35,898 nucleotides of DNA from contig WFTQ01000059.1 in assembly GCA_015485355.1 (NCBI GenBank), positions 1-35,898 of the forward strand, read 5' to 3'. The stretch comes from a bacterium (GTDB lineage: Bacteria; Calditrichota; Calditrichia; RBG-13-44-9; J042). Below are positions 8,436-25,983 of this stretch, one piece after another (position 1 is the stretch's first letter; each line of letters begins with the position of its first letter). A program made the position numbers and the translations under genes. The notes beneath the pieces were generated by a model. It was not told the origin of the DNA. It saw nothing but the letters and a program-made list of their open reading frames with translations, and made no database searches.

Positions 8436-9692
8436 TCAAATCGCCATTTTCCGTCCTTTTTCTATGGCCTGTAACAGCGTGGGAGCATACTTGCGATTTC
8501 GGCTGACTTCCTTCAGCGCTTCGATAGGAAGAACAGCCTCTTTTTTCAGCCAGTAGGCAACGGCGGCCAGCGCAGCGCTTCGTCCACCGACGGTACGGCG
8601 GAAATCGAGCCGTTCCGCGGGATGTCGCCAGTCGATCGAGAGGTGGGCATCGACGATCAACCGGGTTGCCGGTGCCAGCCGCGTTTTCACCTTGTCCCAC
8701 CCGTCTTGAGAGACGACCAAGGCCACATCGGGGACTTCGATGCCCGTGTACAGGATTTCTTCGGGAGACAGAATGACCTCGACCACCGAAAATCCGGTAC
8801 CCACCGTGATGGGATATTCTCCCTTTTTAGTACTGCATAACCCGGCGGAAATGGCCGCACTGGCCAGCAACTCACCGGCGGATTGCACTCCCTCTCCCGC
8901 CGAACCGGCAAGCAGGACGTTCACCCTCCGCCGAAGAGCGCTTTGATACCGTCCCGCAATCCCCGGCAGACGGTCCAGCAAAGAAGGGCGGGTTTCGGCA
9001 TGAATCCGTCGCACCGGTCGATGGCGACGCCACACGCCTTCCGGAAAGGGCAGCACCGCTTTTAACTCTTTCACTTTGCGAATGCCATAAGAGGGACACA
9101 TCTCCACAATTTCCACCAGAGAAAAGCCGGGCGTTTCCAGCGCTTCCCGAAGCAGTGGCTTGACATTCGGTCCCACAAGGCTCCGAGCGCTGAACACGGC
9201 TCCCGCATCGTGTACCAGCTGGACAAGATTGAACGGGGGAATCTGTCCCTCTTCCGGCAACGTCTGATGTTTGACGGGCTCCGGGGTTAACCCGCTCACC
9301 TGCCCCCCTGTCATCCCGTATACCATATTGTTCTGAACCAGCACCGTCATGTCCACATTCTGGCGTGCCGCCTCCAGCAGATGGGCCAAACCGATGGTCG
9401 CCCCGCCGTCTCCCAAAACGACCACCACTTTTTTGCGAGGGTCCTGCAATCCCAGGGAGATTCCCAGCGCCAGGGCCGCAGAACGTCCATGTAAACCGTG
9501 GACGGTATGACATCCTAAAACGCCATCCACCAGACCACAACAGCCAATGTCGCTGACCACAATAACGTCCAGGGGAGACAGTTGCAGTTCTCGAATCGCC
9601 TGATCCAATTGTTTGTTTATCACCGTGTGGCCGCAGCCTGGACAATACGGTAGGGCCTTATCCAGTAAAAGACCTTTTTCTACCACAGCCAT
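8436..9692 (-). CDS. korB: 2-oxoacid:ferredoxin oxidoreductase, fused beta-gamma subunit
   Basis: The N-terminal half (1-230) is the thiamine-diphosphate-binding beta subunit. It has YCPGCGH at 16-22, GDGGATIGLAH from residue 94 and NNMVYGMTGGQ at 121-131. The C-terminal part (about 256-410) is a gamma subunit, beginning VNVLLAGSAGEGVQSAGELL, normally a separate protein or fused to the alpha subunit. With KorA (upstream, overlapping by 13 bp) it would oxidatively decarboxylate a 2-oxoacid with CoA to acyl-CoA, CO2 and reduced ferredoxin, or run in reverse. The substrate is not decided: the GCCGLVDG and HTVHGLHGRS region is shared by several KOR/VOR-like enzymes. No delta (ferredoxin) subunit is present. 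CPGC and the GCC cysteines are the candidate cluster ligands. GGGAGG lies 8 nt before the ATG. Confidence 0.88.
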   Translation of the reverse strand: MAVVEKGLLLDKALPYCPGCGHTVINKQLDQAIRELQLSPLDVIVVSDIGCCGLVDGVLGCHTVHGLHGRSAALALGISLGLQDPRKKVVVVLGDGGATIGLAHLLEAARQNVDMTVLVQNNMVYGMTGGQVSGLTPEPVKHQTLPEEGQIPPFNLVQLVHDAGAVFSARSLVGPNVKPLLREALETPGFSLVEIVEMCPSYGIRKVKELKAVLPFPEGVWRRHRPVRRIHAETRPSLLDRLPGIAGRYQSALRRRVNVLLAGSAGEGVQSAGELLASAAISAGLCSTKKGEYPITVGTGFSVVEVILSPEEILYTGIEVPDVALVVSQDGWDKVKTRLAPATRLIVDAHLSIDWRHPAERLDFRRTVGGRSAALAAVAYWLKKEAVLPIEALKEVSRNRKYAPTLLQAIEKGRKMAI

Positions 9693-10807
9693 GATTCCAC
9701 CTCCCGGACAATTTCTTCCGGTGAAATGAGCGCCCCGATTCGATGAACGCCGTGGATTCGCCCGTCGGGGCGATGGCCGAAAATAATTTCTTTGAGCAAA
9801 CCCGACAGATTTTCTTCCACCACCACAATGCGGGAGTACTGTTGCAGGATGTTCAGCGCCTCAAGCGGCAAGGGTAACAGAGTCTTTAAAATGAGCAAAG
9901 CCATGGCCTTCCCCCGGCGGCGCAATCGGCGAACCGCTTCACGACTGGCCTCACTGGATATCCCATAACTCACCAACAAGACCTCGGCGTCGGGATCGGG
10001 CTGATATTCCAGATGGGTGAATGCGGGTAAATGGCGGACAATTTTATCGCGCAAACGGCGGGTATTGGCCAGGGCCTCGGGCGTGGCTTTCCGGATCAGG
10101 CCCGTGGCGTCGTGGGTGGAGGCATTCAGGCGCACTTGATGATGGGAATTCCCCACCGGTAAAAACGCAGGAGCCTCGGCGGTTTCGGCCGCATAGGGCA
10201 AATAGGCCTCCCGGCCGGCATACTCGCTGCGGGGCAGGGGCTCCAATCGGGGCAAACAGGATAACTCAAAACTGCGGTGGGTCATGATCATTTCCTTAGA
10301 AGTGAGCAAAATTACCGGGGTTCTCAGGGTCAGGGCCATGCGCATGGCCTCGGCGGCCAATGTCCAGCAATCCACAAAATGAGAAGGGCACAACACCGGG
10401 AGAGGATAGCCCCCCGAAATCGCCCCCCGCAACAGCAGCAAGTCCCCCTGGGCCCCGGTGGTGGCCGAACCGGTACTGGGCCCCATGCGCTGCGCCAGGA
10501 TGATCAAAAGAGGCAATTCCATCATATAGGCCATATTGACGGTTTCCAGCATTAAGGCGAACCCGGGGAAACTGGTGGCGGTAACGGGAAATTTCCCCGT
10601 GGCGGCGAATCCCGCCGCCCATTGCAAAGCCGAAATTTCGTCCGGTGCCGGCAAAAACACAGGAAAACGCTGTCGAGCGTAAGCATACAACCAGTTCGAT
10701 GGAGTAATGGGATAACCCACATAAACGTCTGCTCCACCCCGTGCCAGCGCCTCTATGATTAACCGGGAACCATCGATCAAAACCCTGCCTTGAAGTCCGC
10801 TGTCCAT
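9680..10807 (-). CDS. korA: 2-oxoacid:ferredoxin oxidoreductase, alpha subunit
   Basis: The 375-residue protein has GYPITPSN at about 35-42 and GPSTGSATTGAQGDLLLLRG around residues 109-128. These are the conserved pyrimidine-binding and substrate-loop motifs of KorA/VorB-type alpha subunits. The C-terminal domain (about 270-350, LLVSYGISSEASREAV and IVVVEEN) is the usual transketolase-C-like part. No gamma domain precedes it, consistent with gamma being fused to the downstream beta subunit. Its stop overlaps the beta-gamma start, so the two are translationally coupled. GGGAG lies 7 nt before the ATG. It works in the cytoplasm with ferredoxin as partner; the same ferredoxin pool would serve the HdrA complex encoded at 26503. 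The substrate (2-oxoglutarate, branched-chain or other oxoacid) is uncertain. Confidence 0.88.
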   Translation of the reverse strand: MDSGLQGRVLIDGSRLIIEALARGGADVYVGYPITPSNWLYAYARQRFPVFLPAPDEISALQWAAGFAATGKFPVTATSFPGFALMLETVNMAYMMELPLLIILAQRMGPSTGSATTGAQGDLLLLRGAISGGYPLPVLCPSHFVDCWTLAAEAMRMALTLRTPVILLTSKEMIMTHRSFELSCLPRLEPLPRSEYAGREAYLPYAAETAEAPAFLPVGNSHHQVRLNASTHDATGLIRKATPEALANTRRLRDKIVRHLPAFTHLEYQPDPDAEVLLVSYGISSEASREAVRRLRRRGKAMALLILKTLLPLPLEALNILQQYSRIVVVEENLSGLLKEIIFGHRPDGRIHGVHRIGALISPEEIVREVESWLW

Positions 10808-11619: not shown

Positions 11620-12954
11620 ATGTGCGATACCGTGGTGGTAAACGCCCCTGCGAGCCATGAAGGGGTTACTTTATTCGCCAAAAATTCCGATCGGGAACCC
11701 AACGAAGCCCAATTCGTGGAACTGATTCCGCCCGCCGACCATCCGGAAGGCAGTAGGGTTCAATGCACCTACCTGGCTGTCCCTCAAGTACGGCACACCT
11801 ACGGCATGATCATCTCCCGCCCGTTCTGGATGTGGGGTGCCGAAATGGGGGTGAATGAACACGGGGTGGCCGTCGGCAATGAAGCGGTGTTTACCCGTTT
11901 GCCTTATAGGAAACAAGAGGGCCTGTTGGGAATGGACCTGTTGAGACTGGCACTGGAACGTGCCGACACGGCGGAGCGCGCCGTAGAAGTCATCACCTCC
12001 CTTTTAGAACGTTACGGTCAGGGTGGCAATTGCGGGTATGGACAACCCTTCCACTACCACAATAGTTTTCTCATTGCCGATCCCAGAGAGAGCTGGGTAC
12101 TGGAAACGGCGGACCGGGAATGGGTGGCCCGAAGAGTCCACGGCATCTATGCCCTCTCCAACGGGCTCACCATCGGCACCGAGTGGGACAGGGCTTCCGC
12201 CGATCTGATACCTATGGCACTGCGGAAGGGATGGTGCCGGGATCCGGAAGGCTTCCATTTTCGGCGCTGTTATTCCGATTGCTTTTATACCTATTTCAGT
12301 CATTGCCGATACCGGCGGGCATGCAGTCTTGGAACACTCAAGCGTCACCCGGGCCGACCGGACGTTTATACCTTGCTGACCCTGCTGAGGGATCATGGGA
12401 CGACTCCGGGGCGAGAGGATTTCCATCCCGATCGGGGTTGGCTCCGTTCCACGGTGTGCATGCACGCCGGCTTTGGGCCCGTGCGCAGGCATCAAACGAC
12501 GGCTTCTCTGGTGGCCCTTCTGCATCCGGAACGGCCTCTGGTGTTGATAACCGGTACCGCGGCGCCCTGCACGAGTATTTTCAAGCCCCTGTGGTGGGAC
12601 ACCCCGATCGGGGGACTGTTGGGCCGGCCCGCCGGCCGTGCGGACGCCCATTCTCTGTTCTGGCAACACGAACGCCTCCATCGGCTCCTTTTACAGGACT
12701 TTGCCCATCGGCTTTCTCGGATTCAGGAAGAACGCAACCATCTGGAAGCCCAATTCGTTCAGGAAGCCCTTTCCCTGAACGGCGCCGACGTTAAGGAGCG
12801 CCGGCGGCTGGCCCAATGGTGTGTCGAAGAAGCTCGGAGTCAGGAATCTCGGTGGTACCACCGCCTAATCCGGGAACCCATTCGCCGGGCTCCTTCCCGA
12901 TTCTATCTCTGGCAGTGGCGGCGATGGAATCGACAGGCAGGGCTACAGGTGTGA
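11620..12954 (+). CDS. secernin-like C69-family Ntn hydrolase
   Basis: The 444-residue protein starts MCDT, so removal of Met exposes Cys2, the N-terminal nucleophile of the secernin/peptidase C69 group. KNSDREPNEAQ (about 22-32) is the conserved KNSDR motif and GMIISRPFWMWGAEMGVNEH with GVAVGNE (about 62-90) the usual core. Dipeptidases, choloylglycine hydrolases and related amidases share this fold; substrates of secernins are largely unknown. There is no signal peptide and the protein is probably cytoplasmic. The C-terminal 90 residues are helical and charged. GAGGAGCAATT precedes the ATG. No operon partner is evident; the next gene converges. Confidence 0.85.
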   Translation: MCDTVVVNAPASHEGVTLFAKNSDREPNEAQFVELIPPADHPEGSRVQCTYLAVPQVRHTYGMIISRPFWMWGAEMGVNEHGVAVGNEAVFTRLPYRKQEGLLGMDLLRLALERADTAERAVEVITSLLERYGQGGNCGYGQPFHYHNSFLIADPRESWVLETADREWVARRVHGIYALSNGLTIGTEWDRASADLIPMALRKGWCRDPEGFHFRRCYSDCFYTYFSHCRYRRACSLGTLKRHPGRPDVYTLLTLLRDHGTTPGREDFHPDRGWLRSTVCMHAGFGPVRRHQTTASLVALLHPERPLVLITGTAAPCTSIFKPLWWDTPIGGLLGRPAGRADAHSLFWQHERLHRLLLQDFAHRLSRIQEERNHLEAQFVQEALSLNGADVKERRRLAQWCVEEARSQESRWYHRLIREPIRRAPSRFYLWQWRRWNRQAGLQV

Positions 12955-14463: not shown

Positions 14464-14644
14464 ATCACCTTGTGCCACGACGTTTCGCCGCGCCGGCCGG
14501 GGGGAAATTTTGTCCTTCTGAAAGCTAAATGGGCGGAACTGTCTTTATGATAGGGTTAAAACCGCACGGTCAGGGCAATTTCTGCATCATTTTCTCATAA
14601 ATTCCAGGAAGGGAGCTGTTTCAACGGCTTTTAAAGGAATAGTT

Positions 14645-14677
14645 CCGGGACTTTCCCCCGGACAGGGAAAGCCCCGG
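14645..14677 (-). terminator. 13-bp stem-loop downstream of the serine hydrolase gene
   Basis: On the minus strand CCGGGGCTTTCCC pairs with GGGAAAGTCCCGG through all 13 positions, allowing one G-U, with a 7-nt loop. It starts 17 bp past the stop codon. The following bases (AACTATTCCTTT) are only moderately T-rich. Confidence 0.55.
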
Positions 14678-14693: not shown

Positions 14694-17402
14694 TCAATAT
14701 TTCAATCCCTTCACGGGTACCACCCGCTTTTTCTCTGTTTTGTACCATAGGGTCGCAAACCGATGCACACCATTCACCTCGTAGCCGGTTACAAATCGGG
14801 TCAAAAAGCCTTTGTCGGTTTGTTTCTCCCATTCTTTGCCGTACTGAGTACGGCTAAGATTATGACGGGCCTTGTAGGCGCCTTTTGTCGCTGCGTTCCA
14901 GATGGCCGAAAAATACACTTTGCCGCCGTCTTCCCAGGCGTTGAGGTACACGAGTTGCCGACCGGCCTTGCGGTTTTCGTCGAACCGTTTCTGGAATTGA
15001 GCCAGGGGGATATTCGCCAGGGCCAGGAAATGTCCCACATTTTTCTTTTCATACAAGGCCGTGAATTCTGTGCGATTTCCGACCGACACGACCGAGATGT
15101 TCACCGGTCGATACCCCTGGGCCACCAGGGAATTAAAGGCCGTCTGATGGGCCTGAGGAGATTTGCCATGGTAGGCCCTCCAGGCGGGTCCACCGCGTTT
15201 AATAAAAACCACTGCATAGCGGACCTGATTGCCCTCCACATAGCTCTCCACCTGCAGGGGCCGAAAGCCCTTCTGGATCCATTTGTTGAATTCCGCCTGG
15301 TATTGCGCAGAGTTTAAACCATGTCGAGCCACCCAGGGGACACCATCGTTGGGGCGCAGGATCAGATTGAAAAAGGTTCGTCCTTTCACGCGATAAGCGT
15401 CCACCCACACCGGCCGATAGCCATGCTCGAAGACAAAGGGATACATGTCCCGGTCAATCGCATGTTGTTGCAGCTCCGGAAATCCACCCCAGATATTCCA
15501 GGATGCCGGAATATCCGAGTCGGGAACCGCTACGGCAATCTTGTTGGCCAGAGTGACCAGGGCGCTCAGGGCCTCGTTATTGCGTTCTCTGGTCGGATAG
15601 CTGGTGTTGGTGGCCAGGGCGATGTGCACCTCACTCAGGTCCTTTCCTGATTTTGATATATATCCTCCGGGAAACATCACCACATACGCCATCCCACCGG
15701 CGATAAGGCCGTTGTGAAACAAACTTTCGTAATTATTGTTTTCCCCCCCCGACCGGGAAAGCCAGCCCATGTTCTTGAGCTCCTCCACGGTGTACTTTCG
15801 GGAAAGATTTCGGGTGATCCACAACACGCTTTGCGCCGAGGCCGTCCACCCACCGGCCGCGATCCCCAGACCGGAAGGCTTATAAGGCTGCTTGACCGTG
15901 GCATTTTCCTCCTTTAAATAGGCATCGGCGTCGAGAGGATCGGGGTAAAGGGACATGGGACGGACTTTACCCGCTAAACCCATCGGCCTTAAATACCGCT
16001 CCATGGCGTACTGTTCATACGTGATGCCTCCGGTCAAAACAGGAACCAGCATTTTCCAGAGTCCAAACCCATGATTGGAATAGGATGTTAGCCTTCGATT
16101 ATTTCTCACCAGTCCCGGTGCCCAGCGCAAGGAACGGGTGCGCAAGAAATGTTTATGCACCAGAGCATAGGTCAGGGATTCTTCCGGCAGACCGAACATC
16201 ACTTCGGTACCTTTCACATCCCCACTGCGCTGGAAACCCGAGCGATGGGTCAGCAGATAGCCAAGTGTGATGCTGGACCACCATCGGGTGCGATAGAAAC
16301 GTTTGTCATCCAGGTAGATCTCCGGAAAAGAATACTCATACGGCTTTAAATATTTATCAAGATCCAGGCTCGATCCGCTGGAGACGGTGTTGTTACCATA
16401 CCAAACATATACCCGATCATTTCTGGAAATCCCGATACCCCGTATGTCGTAGCGGGAGGTTCCTCCTATTTGTTCGGACGGTGTCTTGTATTGTTGACCG
16501 GAAGAATGTTTGGCAAGATTTAAGGAACTGCCCACACTGCGGGTGCCATCATCATACCATACGTACACCCGGTCATTGGACTTGGCTATGGCAATGCCCA
16601 CAATATTTCGCATCGTCTTTCCCTTGGGAAGTGTCACCGGTGCTTTCTCTCTATCCGGTTTCTTATAACGGTCCAGATCGTCGGCGGTGCCCACGCTGCG
16701 CGTCCCATTCGCGTACCAGGTATACACCCGACCCGATTTGGATATGGCGATCGCCACGATGTCCGTCCGTTCATATCCCTGGGGGAGGCCAAAGGGTTTC
16801 CGCTTCTGGTACCGATCCAGATCTTTGCTGGTGCCCACACTATAATATCCATCCACATACCAGGTGTACACCCTATCCTTGGAAGTGATGGCCATCGCCA
16901 GAATGGGAAAGAACCGCTGATTGTTGATCTGTTGATCAAATGCAAACTGATTGCCCAACACACCGTTCTCCCCGTACAATCGTTGAGTCTGGGGATCGAT
17001 CCCTTTTTCCTGCATGAGCATGGTCGCTACCGGACCGGTCACCACGACTTTCGAGACCGAGCCGATTCGGGTCCGTAAAATGGGTAACATGGGGGCAAAT
17101 TCCAGTCCTCCCCCACTCAGAATATTGGCTTTGGCGTATCCGTAGCCTTTGCTTAAAATCAGACGTCCCTCCTTGCTGACCGCCACCGTCATCCCGACGA
17201 TATCATGCTTTTCCATGGTCTTCTTCACCCATTTGTCGACTTTTTTTTCCAGCTTAGACCAGCCGATCCCTCGGGAATCGATGTCCGACGCATGGATACC
17301 GCCGATCCCTAATAAAAGCCCCAAAAGGCTTATCCACCATGCCCTTCCGGGGACTTTACACCGCGAACCCACATTTATTCCAACGCTTCTGAGGGTGTTC
17401 AT
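14694..17402 (-). CDS. exported serine beta-lactamase-like hydrolase with two repeat arrays
   Basis: The 902-residue protein has a signal peptide (hydrophobic about 21-37, then HASD). A class C beta-lactamase/PBP-like domain follows, with SVSK at 115-118 (SxxK), YLLTHRSGF at 382-390 and a later YSNHGF (YxN). Between SxxK and YLLTHRSG is an insert (about 165-355) of four 35-50-residue repeats of the type DRVYTWYxDGxxSVGTSxDLDRY. After the hydrolase domain, about 655-900 holds five repeats of about 50 residues starting GYRPV or GFRPL, resembling the bacterial tandem repeat domain of polyglycine hydrolases. Likely periplasmic or surface-exposed, acting on a peptide or ester bond. ATG at 17402 is chosen because AGGAGG lies 7 nt upstream and the signal peptide follows; an in-frame ATG at 17480 is unlikely. 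Confidence 0.85.
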   Translation of the reverse strand: MNTLRSVGINVGSRCKVPGRAWWISLLGLLLGIGGIHASDIDSRGIGWSKLEKKVDKWVKKTMEKHDIVGMTVAVSKEGRLILSKGYGYAKANILSGGGLEFAPMLPILRTRIGSVSKVVVTGPVATMLMQEKGIDPQTQRLYGENGVLGNQFAFDQQINNQRFFPILAMAITSKDRVYTWYVDGYYSVGTSKDLDRYQKRKPFGLPQGYERTDIVAIAISKSGRVYTWYANGTRSVGTADDLDRYKKPDREKAPVTLPKGKTMRNIVGIAIAKSNDRVYVWYDDGTRSVGSSLNLAKHSSGQQYKTPSEQIGGTSRYDIRGIGISRNDRVYVWYGNNTVSSGSSLDLDKYLKPYEYSFPEIYLDDKRFYRTRWWSSITLGYLLTHRSGFQRSGDVKGTEVMFGLPEESLTYALVHKHFLRTRSLRWAPGLVRNNRRLTSYSNHGFGLWKMLVPVLTGGITYEQYAMERYLRPMGLAGKVRPMSLYPDPLDADAYLKEENATVKQPYKPSGLGIAAGGWTASAQSVLWITRNLSRKYTVEELKNMGWLSRSGGENNNYESLFHNGLIAGGMAYVVMFPGGYISKSGKDLSEVHIALATNTSYPTRERNNEALSALVTLANKIAVAVPDSDIPASWNIWGGFPELQQHAIDRDMYPFVFEHGYRPVWVDAYRVKGRTFFNLILRPNDGVPWVARHGLNSAQYQAEFNKWIQKGFRPLQVESYVEGNQVRYAVVFIKRGGPAWRAYHGKSPQAHQTAFNSLVAQGYRPVNISVVSVGNRTEFTALYEKKNVGHFLALANIPLAQFQKRFDENRKAGRQLVYLNAWEDGGKVYFSAIWNAATKGAYKARHNLSRTQYGKEWEKQTDKGFLTRFVTGYEVNGVHRFATLWYKTEKKRVVPVKGLKY

Positions 17403-17496
17403 ATCTTGCCTCCTTTTGTTAAGTGAACTGATCCTTTTTAGGAATACCTTAATCCAAAGAAGGGAACAATGTTTTAACAAAGAACCGACAGGCCGT

Positions 17497-23360: not shown

Positions 23361-24839
23361 TCAGGAGCGTTCTACGGATCCATTGCGAATCTCTTTTATC
23401 ACCTTTCCCCGGGCATCCCACAAACGTACCGAAAACGCAAAATGTCCCGGTAAGGAATGCGTCCCGCAGGCATGGCAGGGGTCATAGGCGCGAAAAGCCA
23501 TTTCCACCAGATTCAACACTTCTTCACTGACTTTTCCATCATGAATCAGATGTCGAGCCGCTTTGTCCACGCTCATGGCGATGCGGGCGGCATTATTCTG
23601 AGTAGCCACCAGCAGATTGGCTTTCTGGATCAGGCCCTTCGTATCGGTCCAGTAATGGTGGAACAGGGTGCCCCGGGGCGCCTCCACGACTCCGACTCCT
23701 TCTCCGGAAGAGGTTCGGGGAATCATCCGAATTCGTTGGGAGGTGATATCCGGGTCAGCGGCCAGTTCCAGGAAACGTTCGGCGGCGTACATGATCTCCA
23801 CTACCCGGGCCCAGTGCATGGCCAGGGTATGATGAACCGGTCGGGTTCCCAGCGCCTGGTACATCTCCTGGTAAGCGGCCTGGGCTTCTTCGGTGGCCAT
23901 GCCATCGGCCACATTCAGCCGGGCCAGCGGTGCCACCGCATAAATCCCGGAGGCTTCCCCATCCACAAACCCCTTCCATCCCACTTTTTTCAGATATAAA
24001 AATTTGATATAGGTCCAGGGCTCGACATGTTCGGCCAAATGCTGGAGATACTCCCTTGCCGGAAACCGAATATACTCCTTTCCCTGGGGATCCACCACTC
24101 GAATATCCCCATCGTAGAAATTAACCCGGTTTTGTGGATCCACCAGCCCCATGTAATAGGTTCGATGGGTGTAAGCATCGGAGGTAATGAATTCGACATA
24201 TTCGCGGTTTTTCAGGACGATTTCTCGAAACGTTTGGAGGGTAAAGCGGGCGAATTCCACCGCCTCCCGGGCCACCGTGATAAACCGCTGTTGCTGCGAT
24301 GGGTCCAATCCTCTGGTGACGCCGCCGGGCAAGGCCCACACCGGATGAATCACTTTTCCCGCTAAAAAGGTCATCAGTTCCCGCACCCGACGGCGCATGG
24401 CGATGAGCTTCTTTCCGGTGTCCAACCCCACGGTCTGAATCACCCCCACAACGTTGCGTTGCTCTTTCGGCGCACCCGGCCCCACAATGAAATCCGGCCC
24501 CCCAAGTATGTAGAAATGAAGCAAATGGTCCTCGAACATGAACATATTGTACAGCATTTCCCGGAGTTTTTTCGCCGCAACGGGAGGATCAACCTCGTAT
24601 ACATCGTCACACGCTTTTGCGGAGGCTATGTGATGGGCCGTGGGACACACCCCGCAAATGCGGGCGGTAATTTGAGGCATCATCTCCACCGGCTTTCCCC
24701 GACAAAACACTTCAAAACCTCGCAATTCCGGTATCGACAGGTAAGCCCGTTCCACCTCGCCCTTGTCATTCAAAAAAATCTCGATCTTACCATGGCCCTC
24801 CAGCCGAGTTATGGGATCGATTTCGATACGTTTGCCCAT
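23361..24839 (-). CDS. mvhA: NiFe hydrogenase large subunit, group 3c (MvhA-like)
   Basis: The 492-residue protein starts MGKRIEIDPITRLEGHGKIE, the classic hydrogenase large-subunit start. The two NiFe ligand motifs are ARICGVC (Cys62, Cys65) and DPCHACGTH (Cys455, Cys458). It would split H2 in the cytoplasm; there is no signal peptide. Beyond His461 lies a 31-residue extension, to be cut by the protease encoded next. ATG at 24839 is chosen, with GAGGAG 7 nt upstream; the frame is open upstream to 25238 but that stretch overlaps mvhG and is low in sense. The neighbours mvhG and mvhD and the hdr genes fix it as the F420-non-reducing, Hdr-linked type rather than a NAD-linked one. Confidence 0.95.
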   Translation of the reverse strand: MGKRIEIDPITRLEGHGKIEIFLNDKGEVERAYLSIPELRGFEVFCRGKPVEMMPQITARICGVCPTAHHIASAKACDDVYEVDPPVAAKKLREMLYNMFMFEDHLLHFYILGGPDFIVGPGAPKEQRNVVGVIQTVGLDTGKKLIAMRRRVRELMTFLAGKVIHPVWALPGGVTRGLDPSQQQRFITVAREAVEFARFTLQTFREIVLKNREYVEFITSDAYTHRTYYMGLVDPQNRVNFYDGDIRVVDPQGKEYIRFPAREYLQHLAEHVEPWTYIKFLYLKKVGWKGFVDGEASGIYAVAPLARLNVADGMATEEAQAAYQEMYQALGTRPVHHTLAMHWARVVEIMYAAERFLELAADPDITSQRIRMIPRTSSGEGVGVVEAPRGTLFHHYWTDTKGLIQKANLLVATQNNAARIAMSVDKAARHLIHDGKVSEEVLNLVEMAFRAYDPCHACGTHSLPGHFAFSVRLWDARGKVIKEIRNGSVERS

Positions 24840-24951
24840 GATTAGCTCCTCATCCCATTGTTTATCTCGGAAGTTTCGTGATCCTCCCTCCCTTTTGGGG
24901 ATGCTTCTCCATCCCGAGAAGCCTATCCCCAACCGGGAGTTTTCCCCTGCG

Positions 24952-25983
24952 TCACCTGGATTCGGCCTTTTCTCGGCGTGGCTCGGTACGGGCTGTGCGC
25001 CGCCCGTTTGACGGCAACACCTTTTGAAAGAGCAACGATTTGGGCAACGAATACATGTAGAAGGTGCCCAGGGGATCCGGAATGCCCTCATCCAGAATGC
25101 GTTCGATGTCGTGGGGATCGTCGGCATCGATAATCGAAGCCACAAAGGACAGGGCCGCGGCACCGAAGTCCCGAACCCCATCCAGCGGTCCGAAACACCC
25201 GGTGCAAGGCATGCGTCCCTTAATACACAGGGCTCCACAACCGCCGCGGGTCACCGGTCCCAGGCATATCAATCCTTGTACCAACAAGCAGGTGTGGGGA
25301 TCAATCTTATCCACCAGATGGGGTCGCCGAAACGCTTGGATTCGAATCCCTTCTTCGGGCTTGGTATCGTTCAACTCACATTCGTGGCACAGGGCGTGGG
25401 TGGCCGCCAGTACTGTTCCCGAGGGCGGCGGCTGATCGGACAACAGCTGCGCCAGCGCTCCCTTCACCACATTGGGGGGCGGGGCGCATCCGGGAATGTA
25501 ATAGTCCACCTCAACGACCTGATCCAGGGCGCGCACGTTTTCATAAAACCGCGGCAGATGGAAGCCATGCTCTTTCCAGGTTCTTTCCGGATCGGGGGGC
25601 ATGGGCTCCCTGGATTCCAGGGCGGGACCGTTACGGTAATAATAATCCAGGATTGCTTCTCTAGCCACCCCGTTCGCCAGACCGGGTATTCCCCCCATAT
25701 GGGAACAGGCCCCAAAGGCGACGATCACTCGGGATTTCCGCCGCAATAGTTTTACAATCTCTTCCTGCTCGGACAACCGTACGGCTCCATTGATAAAAGT
25801 GGCAAAAATTTCCCCGTCGTCCAGGCGCTCCACATCCTCGCGTTTAAAGTCCATGGCAACCGGCCAGAAAACGATATCGATCTGTTCCAGGGCGGTGAGT
25901 AAATCCTCGGCTAAATCGACCACGGCTTCTTCGCAGCCACCACAGGAGGCACACCAATAGAATCCCACTTTTTTCTTTTCCAT
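24952..25983 (-). CDS. mvhG: NiFe hydrogenase small subunit (MvhG-like)
   Basis: The 343-residue protein starts VGFYWCASCGGCEEAVVDL (Cys11, Cys14), the proximal-cluster motif of group 3 small subunits. GACSHMGGIPG, YYIPGCAPPPNVV and a later Cys-rich stretch (HTCLLVQGLICLGPVTRGGC and GRMPCTGCFGP) follow for the other Fe-S clusters. No Tat signal is present, as expected for a cytoplasmic group 3 enzyme. It carries electrons from MvhA to MvhD. The ATG follows mvhD by 2 bp and its ribosome site AGGAGGG lies inside the last mvhD codons. The C-terminal 30 residues are basic and poorly conserved-looking. Confidence 0.95.
   Translation of the reverse strand: MEKKKVGFYWCASCGGCEEAVVDLAEDLLTALEQIDIVFWPVAMDFKREDVERLDDGEIFATFINGAVRLSEQEEIVKLLRRKSRVIVAFGACSHMGGIPGLANGVAREAILDYYYRNGPALESREPMPPDPERTWKEHGFHLPRFYENVRALDQVVEVDYYIPGCAPPPNVVKGALAQLLSDQPPPSGTVLAATHALCHECELNDTKPEEGIRIQAFRRPHLVDKIDPHTCLLVQGLICLGPVTRGGCGALCIKGRMPCTGCFGPLDGVRDFGAAALSFVASIIDADDPHDIERILDEGIPDPLGTFYMYSLPKSLLFQKVLPSNGRRTARTEPRREKAESR

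Follow-up and report, generated by a model that had tools for sequence, protein, structure and literature searches.

The window, i.e., the whole stretch of 35,898 nucleotides analysed here, carries on its minus strand an open reading frame for a protein of 902 amino acids (14694-17402, with ATG at 17402 and the stop codon at 14694-14696); an in-frame TTG upstream, at 17480, is a possible alternative start. The gene occurs in one full copy in the source genome. Its product is a serine hydrolase of the beta-lactamase/S12 fold which is split by an insert and followed by BTRD1 repeats. The Pfam family PF00144 matches it in two pieces (3.7e-18; 66.2 bits against a cut-off of 27) and PF17660 (BTRD1) matches it in five stretches (6e-56). 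An earlier note on this DNA had proposed a beta-lactamase-fold hydrolase with SxxK and YxN motifs, and these are found at S115xxK118 and Y441xN443. The four-repeat insert that it had seen between SxxK and YLLTHRSG is also borne out: 198 residues, 164-361, lie between S115-V-S-K118 and Y382LLTHRSG. The third motif of the serine beta-lactamase/PBP fold, [HK]xG, is present as H563xG565, and the class C beta-lactamase models stay far short of their cut-offs (18.6 bits for NF033085, which requires 415). The coordinates of all features are collected in Table 1.

In what follows, the window hydrolase is called P0001, its Calditrichota relative P0002, the hydrolase of a Methylothermaceae MAG P0004, and two hydrolases from genomes sampled within the class to which an Anaerolineae MAG belongs P0005 and L172. 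The hydrolase is probably exported, judging from an N-terminal signal sequence with a possible cleavage after A38, read by eye from the translation; a hydrophobic leader also starts P0002, P0004 and P0005. The genes around the hydrolase (a secernin-like C69 peptidase, a CNNM transporter, MeaB and glycosyltransferases) give no functional clue. No peptidoglycan gene is seen among the ten neighbours scanned, and the substrate proposed below is therefore a guess. The gene adjoining the G002 copy differs, by eye, from that at the window locus. The C69 peptidase gene occupies 11620-12954 on the opposite strand. Elsewhere in the window, two genes at 8436-10807 encode a 2-oxoacid:ferredoxin oxidoreductase (POR_N, TPP_enzyme_C), and 23361-25238 encodes a NiFe-hydrogenase large-subunit-type protein (PF00374, 2.6e-34, two matched stretches). 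The terminator-like hairpin 3' of the stop codon is graded weak, because the consensus scan finds 8 such hairpins in the region when 4.9 are expected from shuffles.

Table 1. Features of the hydrolase gene, in window coordinates.
Feature	Position	Strand	Basis or remark
Putative N-terminal signal sequence, residues 1-39	17286..17402	(-)	By eye from translation; hydrophobic core ~22-36
Catalytic domain piece 1, with nucleophile helix, residues 40-143	16974..17285	(-)	PF00144 profile 1-75 at 16992-17240
SxxK, S115-V-S-K118	17049..17060	(-)	S and K in 86/86 aligned catalytic domains
Entry linker after Y143 (YGxxGxL...), residues 144-163	16914..16973	(-)	Conserved in alignment of four insert-bearing members
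Inserted four-bladed beta-propeller (predicted), residues 164-361	16320..16913	(-)	AlphaFold2, VIA-align, blade counts
Propeller blades	16764-16913, 16608-16763, 16449-16607, 16320-16448	(-)	
Catalytic domain piece 2, residues 378-626	15525..16271	(-)	PF00144 profile 84-321 at residues 365-611
YxN, Y441-S-N443	16074..16082	(-)	Y in 86/86, N in 45/86 aligned catalytic domains
HxG, H563-N-G565	15708..15716	(-)	H in 53/86, G in 51/86 aligned catalytic domains
Five BTRD1 repeats, C-terminal, residues about 641-890	14733..15482	(-)	PF17660; each strand-helix-strand-strand
Terminator-like hairpin 3' of stop	14644..14662	(-)	Consensus scan; weak

Fold of the insert and of the C-terminal array

When the insert is matched to itself, the best ungapped off-diagonal score is 115, whereas 300 shuffles reach at most 43, and from this follows that its internal repeats are not due to chance. 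A single-blade HMM, the seeds of which include the four blades of this very insert, finds exactly four blades in it (167-209, 214-261, 266-314 and 319-361), with 74-84 bits each. AlphaFold2, applied to the insert alone with twelve rows of relatives, some of which are overlapping stretches of one protein, predicts one contiguous folded domain, in agreement with the earlier note: the mean pLDDT is 83.5 and the pTM 0.80, with pLDDT above 90 in most blade residues and four sets of strands. When this model is compared with 973 chains by VIA-align, rows 1-14 are all hemopexin-like four-bladed propellers (Z 10.5-13.0), headed by an MMP-1 chain at its hemopexin-like domain (Z 13.0, 169 residues, 3.5 A), and the first row of another kind is a glutaminyl cyclase (Z 7.7). 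The Foldseek ranking differs, with WD40-type and other chains first and TM-scores below 0.5. The fold predicted for the insert is a four-bladed propeller of the hemopexin-like type.

The blade counts obtained with the one-blade HMM are independent of the structural model, and they are four in P0001, P0002, the insert of P0004, P0005 and L004, and eight in the stand-alone protein L040; L172 also has four blades. In P0005, blades 3 and 4 are weak (11.7 and 13.0 bits), i.e., no better than the stray matches to generic propellers, which reach 11.3 bits. The same HMM reads the N-terminal array of P0004, and that of L041, as half a blade, three blades and half a blade, as expected if the two ends of the array come together to close the ring. 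The full-protein model, made from two sequences, is too poor (mean pLDDT 42.7), and in it the insert is best matched, in alignments that run across it, by five- and six-bladed propellers, e.g., tachylectin-2 with Z 11.3; these alignments also include low-confidence residues of the catalytic domain from 67 on. The five- or six-bladed reading was set aside, as the extra blade would consist of catalytic-domain strands at pLDDT below 50; the insert-only model lacks those strands and cannot by itself exclude that reading.

Pfam gives no hemopexin match, either to the whole window protein (searched up to E 1) or to its insert (up to E 10), the insert repeats of the window protein have no above-cut-off match in Pfam or NCBIfam, and the propeller repeats of P0002, P0004 and P0005 have none in Pfam. 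RCC1-type matches to the insert are weak (E 5.4e-4 and 9.8e-4) and all below the curated cut-offs, with 19.3 bits against 22 for RCC1_2 and 19.8 bits against 150 for WD40_RLD. L040 matches several unrelated Pfam families, some above cut-off; these matches were taken as artefacts, because the protein is highly repetitive and no single stretch passes alone.

The C-terminal array scores 159 against itself, compared with 49 in shuffles. In the full-protein model, residues 688-892 align with residues 13-216 of 7tpu_A, i.e., the fungal polyglycine hydrolase Fvan-cmp, with Z 17.4 over 199 residues. The N-domain of Fvan-cmp is, in the available passages of its description, a barrel of five strand-helix-strand-strand repeats (PMC9912923), so that the five-repeat kinship claimed by the earlier note stands, as does the hydrolase-first order, opposite to that of the polyglycine hydrolases, since the barrel lies behind the catalytic domain. 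BTRD1 is a Calditrichota add-on to the insert-bearing hydrolase, and the barrel falls outside the core enzyme because some relatives with the propeller lack it. Ten of 40 Calditrichota genomes have BTRD1; the other arrays stand alone or ahead of a DPBB_1 domain, which Pfam describes as a lytic transglycolase. There is a hint here that the barrel may bind the cell envelope. In L013 and L014 (also in L007 and L024, by eye) five BTRD1 repeats precede an RlpA-type DPBB, with three matched stretches in L014. Plasmid arrays of Acaryochloris, Cupriavidus and Nonomuraea have, by eye, about five repeats.

Occurrence and origin of the insertion

A search for the same architecture finds the insertion also in hydrolases of other Calditrichota, of the Methylothermaceae MAG and of the Anaerolineae group, so that the carriers are P0001, P0002, P0004, P0005 and L172. 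The lineages named are those given in record titles or those of the group searched. P0002, from a genome of the same genus (Calditrichota MAG contig JAADJD010000018.1), has an intact gene and is 57% identical to P0001 over the full length, with 63% in the propeller, 62% and 60% in the catalytic pieces and 53% in BTRD1. In a third genome of the family the last 366 residues occur alone, in a gene cut by the contig end, and in a fourth the hydrolase is not matched. P0004 has a second, N-terminal propeller besides its insert, while P0005 and L172 have a Thr/Pro-rich tail, and all three lack BTRD1. Each of the four aligned bearers keeps SxxK, YxN and HxG, and so does L172.

Profiles of the insert reach E 0.001 or better in 8 of the 385 genomes sampled (3 of them strong); they also match 1 genome among 251 from the order to which the Methylothermaceae MAG belongs, and 11 among 396 from the class that includes the Anaerolineae MAG (2 of them strong). 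At E 1e-6 they match 1 of 289 genomes in the class of a Mesorhizobium MAG, and 2 of 56 and 1 of 154 in two orders around the Anaerolineae-group genomes. Whichever genomes gave rise to a search are themselves part of its count. From these low numbers follows that the propeller module is rare. Weak matches at 15 other loci, with at most 11.3 bits per stretch in the single-blade model, were not counted as members; two of these proteins look FG-GAP-type and RCC1-type by eye. A scan of genome contigs with the window protein finds no close relative, and viral contigs hold no relative by the window protein or by two alignments. Among plasmids, the window protein matches three records, all on the BTRD1 part; the Methylothermaceae protein has S12-type matches in 161 records, and among the matches listed (20) none covers 80% of the query. 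L040 has no match in plasmids or phages by BLAST, which masks simple repeats.

Blades also occur outside the hydrolases. L040 (4020-5300, Anaerolineae MAG JAIOHN010000619.1) is a stand-alone protein with a hydrophobic leader and eight near-identical blades of 49 residues, an array which looks like a recent amplification. L041 (3615-5900, Mesorhizobium MAG) combines a HELAHQ zinc-peptidase-like motif, seen by eye, with its array, which may form a separately closed four-blade ring. L004 (613-2076, from the class of the window genome) has four C-terminal blades and, by eye, an RHG motif; its N-terminal part has no above-cut-off Pfam match.

The insertion site is identical in the four aligned proteins, which share the YGxxGxL entry linker and an LLxHxSGxxRSG motif after the exit, and L172 has the same spacing. 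From the nucleophilic serine to the tyrosine of YxN there are 326, 330, 320 and 330 residues in the four bearers, compared with 88-131 in 82 other S12 domains. These comparators remain from 88 catalytic domains after removal of L091 (in-frame stop) and of L164, L149, L151, L166 and L168 (lacking an open frame with SxxK at the expected place); they are a part of the PF00144 matches listed as single pieces, so that other split domains could escape. When a tree is made of 86 catalytic domains minus the insert, a branch with SH-aLRT 100 sets the four tested bearers apart from all others; the tree is a quick search without bootstraps, and some of the other rows have long branches. Since the bearers group together when the insert is left out, a single origin of the insertion fits the data. 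When blades are matched by position, four of four correspond between P0001 and P0002, and only some between lineages.

Proposed mechanism, rival readings and known systems

The proposed explanation is that an ancestral S12 catalytic domain was split once by a four-bladed propeller, and that a Calditrichota lineage also has the five-repeat BTRD1 barrel at its C-terminus. In the enzyme, which is probably exported, S115 is the likely nucleophile: activated by K118 and Y441, it would attack an amide or an ester, while H563-N-G565 would hold the substrate in place. The propeller, both ends of which are held in the catalytic domain, would most likely select substrates, as a binding or gating device built into the enzyme, and the barrel would most likely anchor the enzyme to a cell-envelope polymer or to the substrate. 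What the analysis establishes are the domain order, the motifs, the conservation, the joint branch of the insert-bearing catalytic domains and, by prediction, the propeller fold; export, chemistry, substrate and BTRD1 anchoring are inferred, as is the probable gating, the basis of which is the insertion point. Taken as a whole, the explanation has about an even chance of being right.

Alternatively, both repeat domains may serve only to anchor or oligomerise the enzyme, without touching the substrate. This is how the lipocalin of Pab87 works, in so far as the available passages on that enzyme describe it: Pab87 is an S12 peptidase specific for D-amino-acid peptides, with motifs SxxK/YxN/HxG, and its added barrel domain builds an octamer and walls off the active sites (PMC2651629). 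The eight blades of L040, standing alone, suggest a general binding module as well. However, an internal insertion that is kept in three lineages would be a costly means of anchoring, when an N-terminal propeller as in P0004 would suffice, and this alternative appears unlikely, if far from negligible. The propeller could also be a built-in inhibitor, i.e., a BLIP-II in cis, which docks and holds the enzyme inactive until a ligand or partner removes it. It is located behind the nucleophile helix and ahead of the ITLxxLLTHRSG segment, at a point that may correspond to the docking site of BLIP-II, a presumed correspondence which weakens the case. BLIP-II is described, in the parts available, as a seven-bladed propeller that binds a protruding loop-helix beside the class A active site (PMC9146315, PMC6121496), the insert weakly resembles RCC1, and a propeller survey places RCC1 and BLIP-II in one superfamily in its accessible text (PMC3797127). 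The insert has four blades, not seven, and an inhibitor need not be conserved as well as the catalytic core, and so a pure inhibitor is quite improbable. A broader version, in which a second family of four-bladed propellers, distinct from hemopexin in sequence and mobile in bacteria, was once inserted into an S12 peptidase and is now a gate or inhibitor at the BLIP-II-type docking side, is improbable.

A bacterial polyglycine hydrolase, i.e., an endoprotease on glycine-rich linkers whose BTRD1 barrel recognises the target protein, would have the same pair of folds, S12 plus five-repeat barrel, as its fungal counterpart (PMC9912923, available passages), but the domain order is reversed, some propeller-bearing relatives lack BTRD1, and the HxG that is intact here is missing from Fvan-cmp, which disfavours that chemistry; the reading is very improbable. 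The earlier note's interpretation is partly supported: the hydrolase fold with its motifs, the contiguous insert and the kinship and order of the C-terminal repeats hold, while the insert may, as that note suggested, cover the active site. That the protein is dead or decayed, or its insert an intein-like invader, is hardly credible. The PF00144 score of 3.7e-18 is indeed low, compared with 1e-60 or better for the best match in many genomes of the phylum, but the three motifs are kept in five proteins, there is no stop codon, the insert is conserved like the core, and blades recur as modules in other proteins.

No published account of a propeller inserted in such hydrolases was found in open PMC papers, the scope of the search, with subscription papers outside it, and the four-bladed cluster named in the accessible text of the propeller survey is hemopexin (PMC3797127). 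A bacterial four-bladed module of distinct sequence, occurring alone, doubled, or on other probably exported proteins, would be of use in testing how the number of blades evolves. The insertion of this module into an enzyme of the penicillin-target type, found in three lineages, is a natural experiment on the gain of substrates or switches, and the system bears on the function of the BTRD1 barrel and on the role of D-peptidase-like enzymes in environmental bacteria.

Among known systems, Pab87/CubicO (PDB 2qmi) has the same three motifs and also joins an S12 domain to an extra beta-rich C-terminal domain, which is a lipocalin there and five BTRD1 repeats here; its serine and tyrosine (59 and 160) are, by the available description, 101 residues apart, compared with 326 here, where the propeller lies between. 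The HxG motif is shared with the D-peptidase/DD-peptidase subgroup (Pab87, DAP, R61). In Fvan-cmp (PDB 7tpu), as far as its published description is available, the same two domains occur with the barrel N-terminal (PMC9912923) instead of C-terminal, and the third motif, HNG here, is absent, with Phe at the glycine position. S343 and Y447 are 104 residues apart in Fvan-cmp, which leaves no room for a propeller. Because the motif set is Pab87-like and Fvan-cmp lacks the third motif, a D-stereospecific peptidase, a DD-carboxypeptidase or an esterase is favoured by the motifs over a beta-lactamase or polyglycine hydrolase. With RCC1/BLIP-II the insert shares a weak RCC1 sequence match, and the BLIP-II propeller binds beta-lactamase-fold enzymes, but as a separate protein. 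Prolyl oligopeptidase (family S9) is a serine peptidase with a substrate-filtering propeller, of alpha/beta-hydrolase fold and with seven blades. By VIA-align, the hemopexin-like propellers of MMP-1, MMP-2, vitronectin and hemopexin are closest and have four blades, at 8-13% identity and with no Pfam hemopexin match. A disulphide between blades 1 and 4 is a hemopexin signature; here the insert has no cysteine, and since C15 is the only cysteine of the window protein there can be no such bond. In the MMPs, too, the propeller is attached to a hydrolase, but there the hemopexin-like domain is reportedly appended, whereas here it is inserted.
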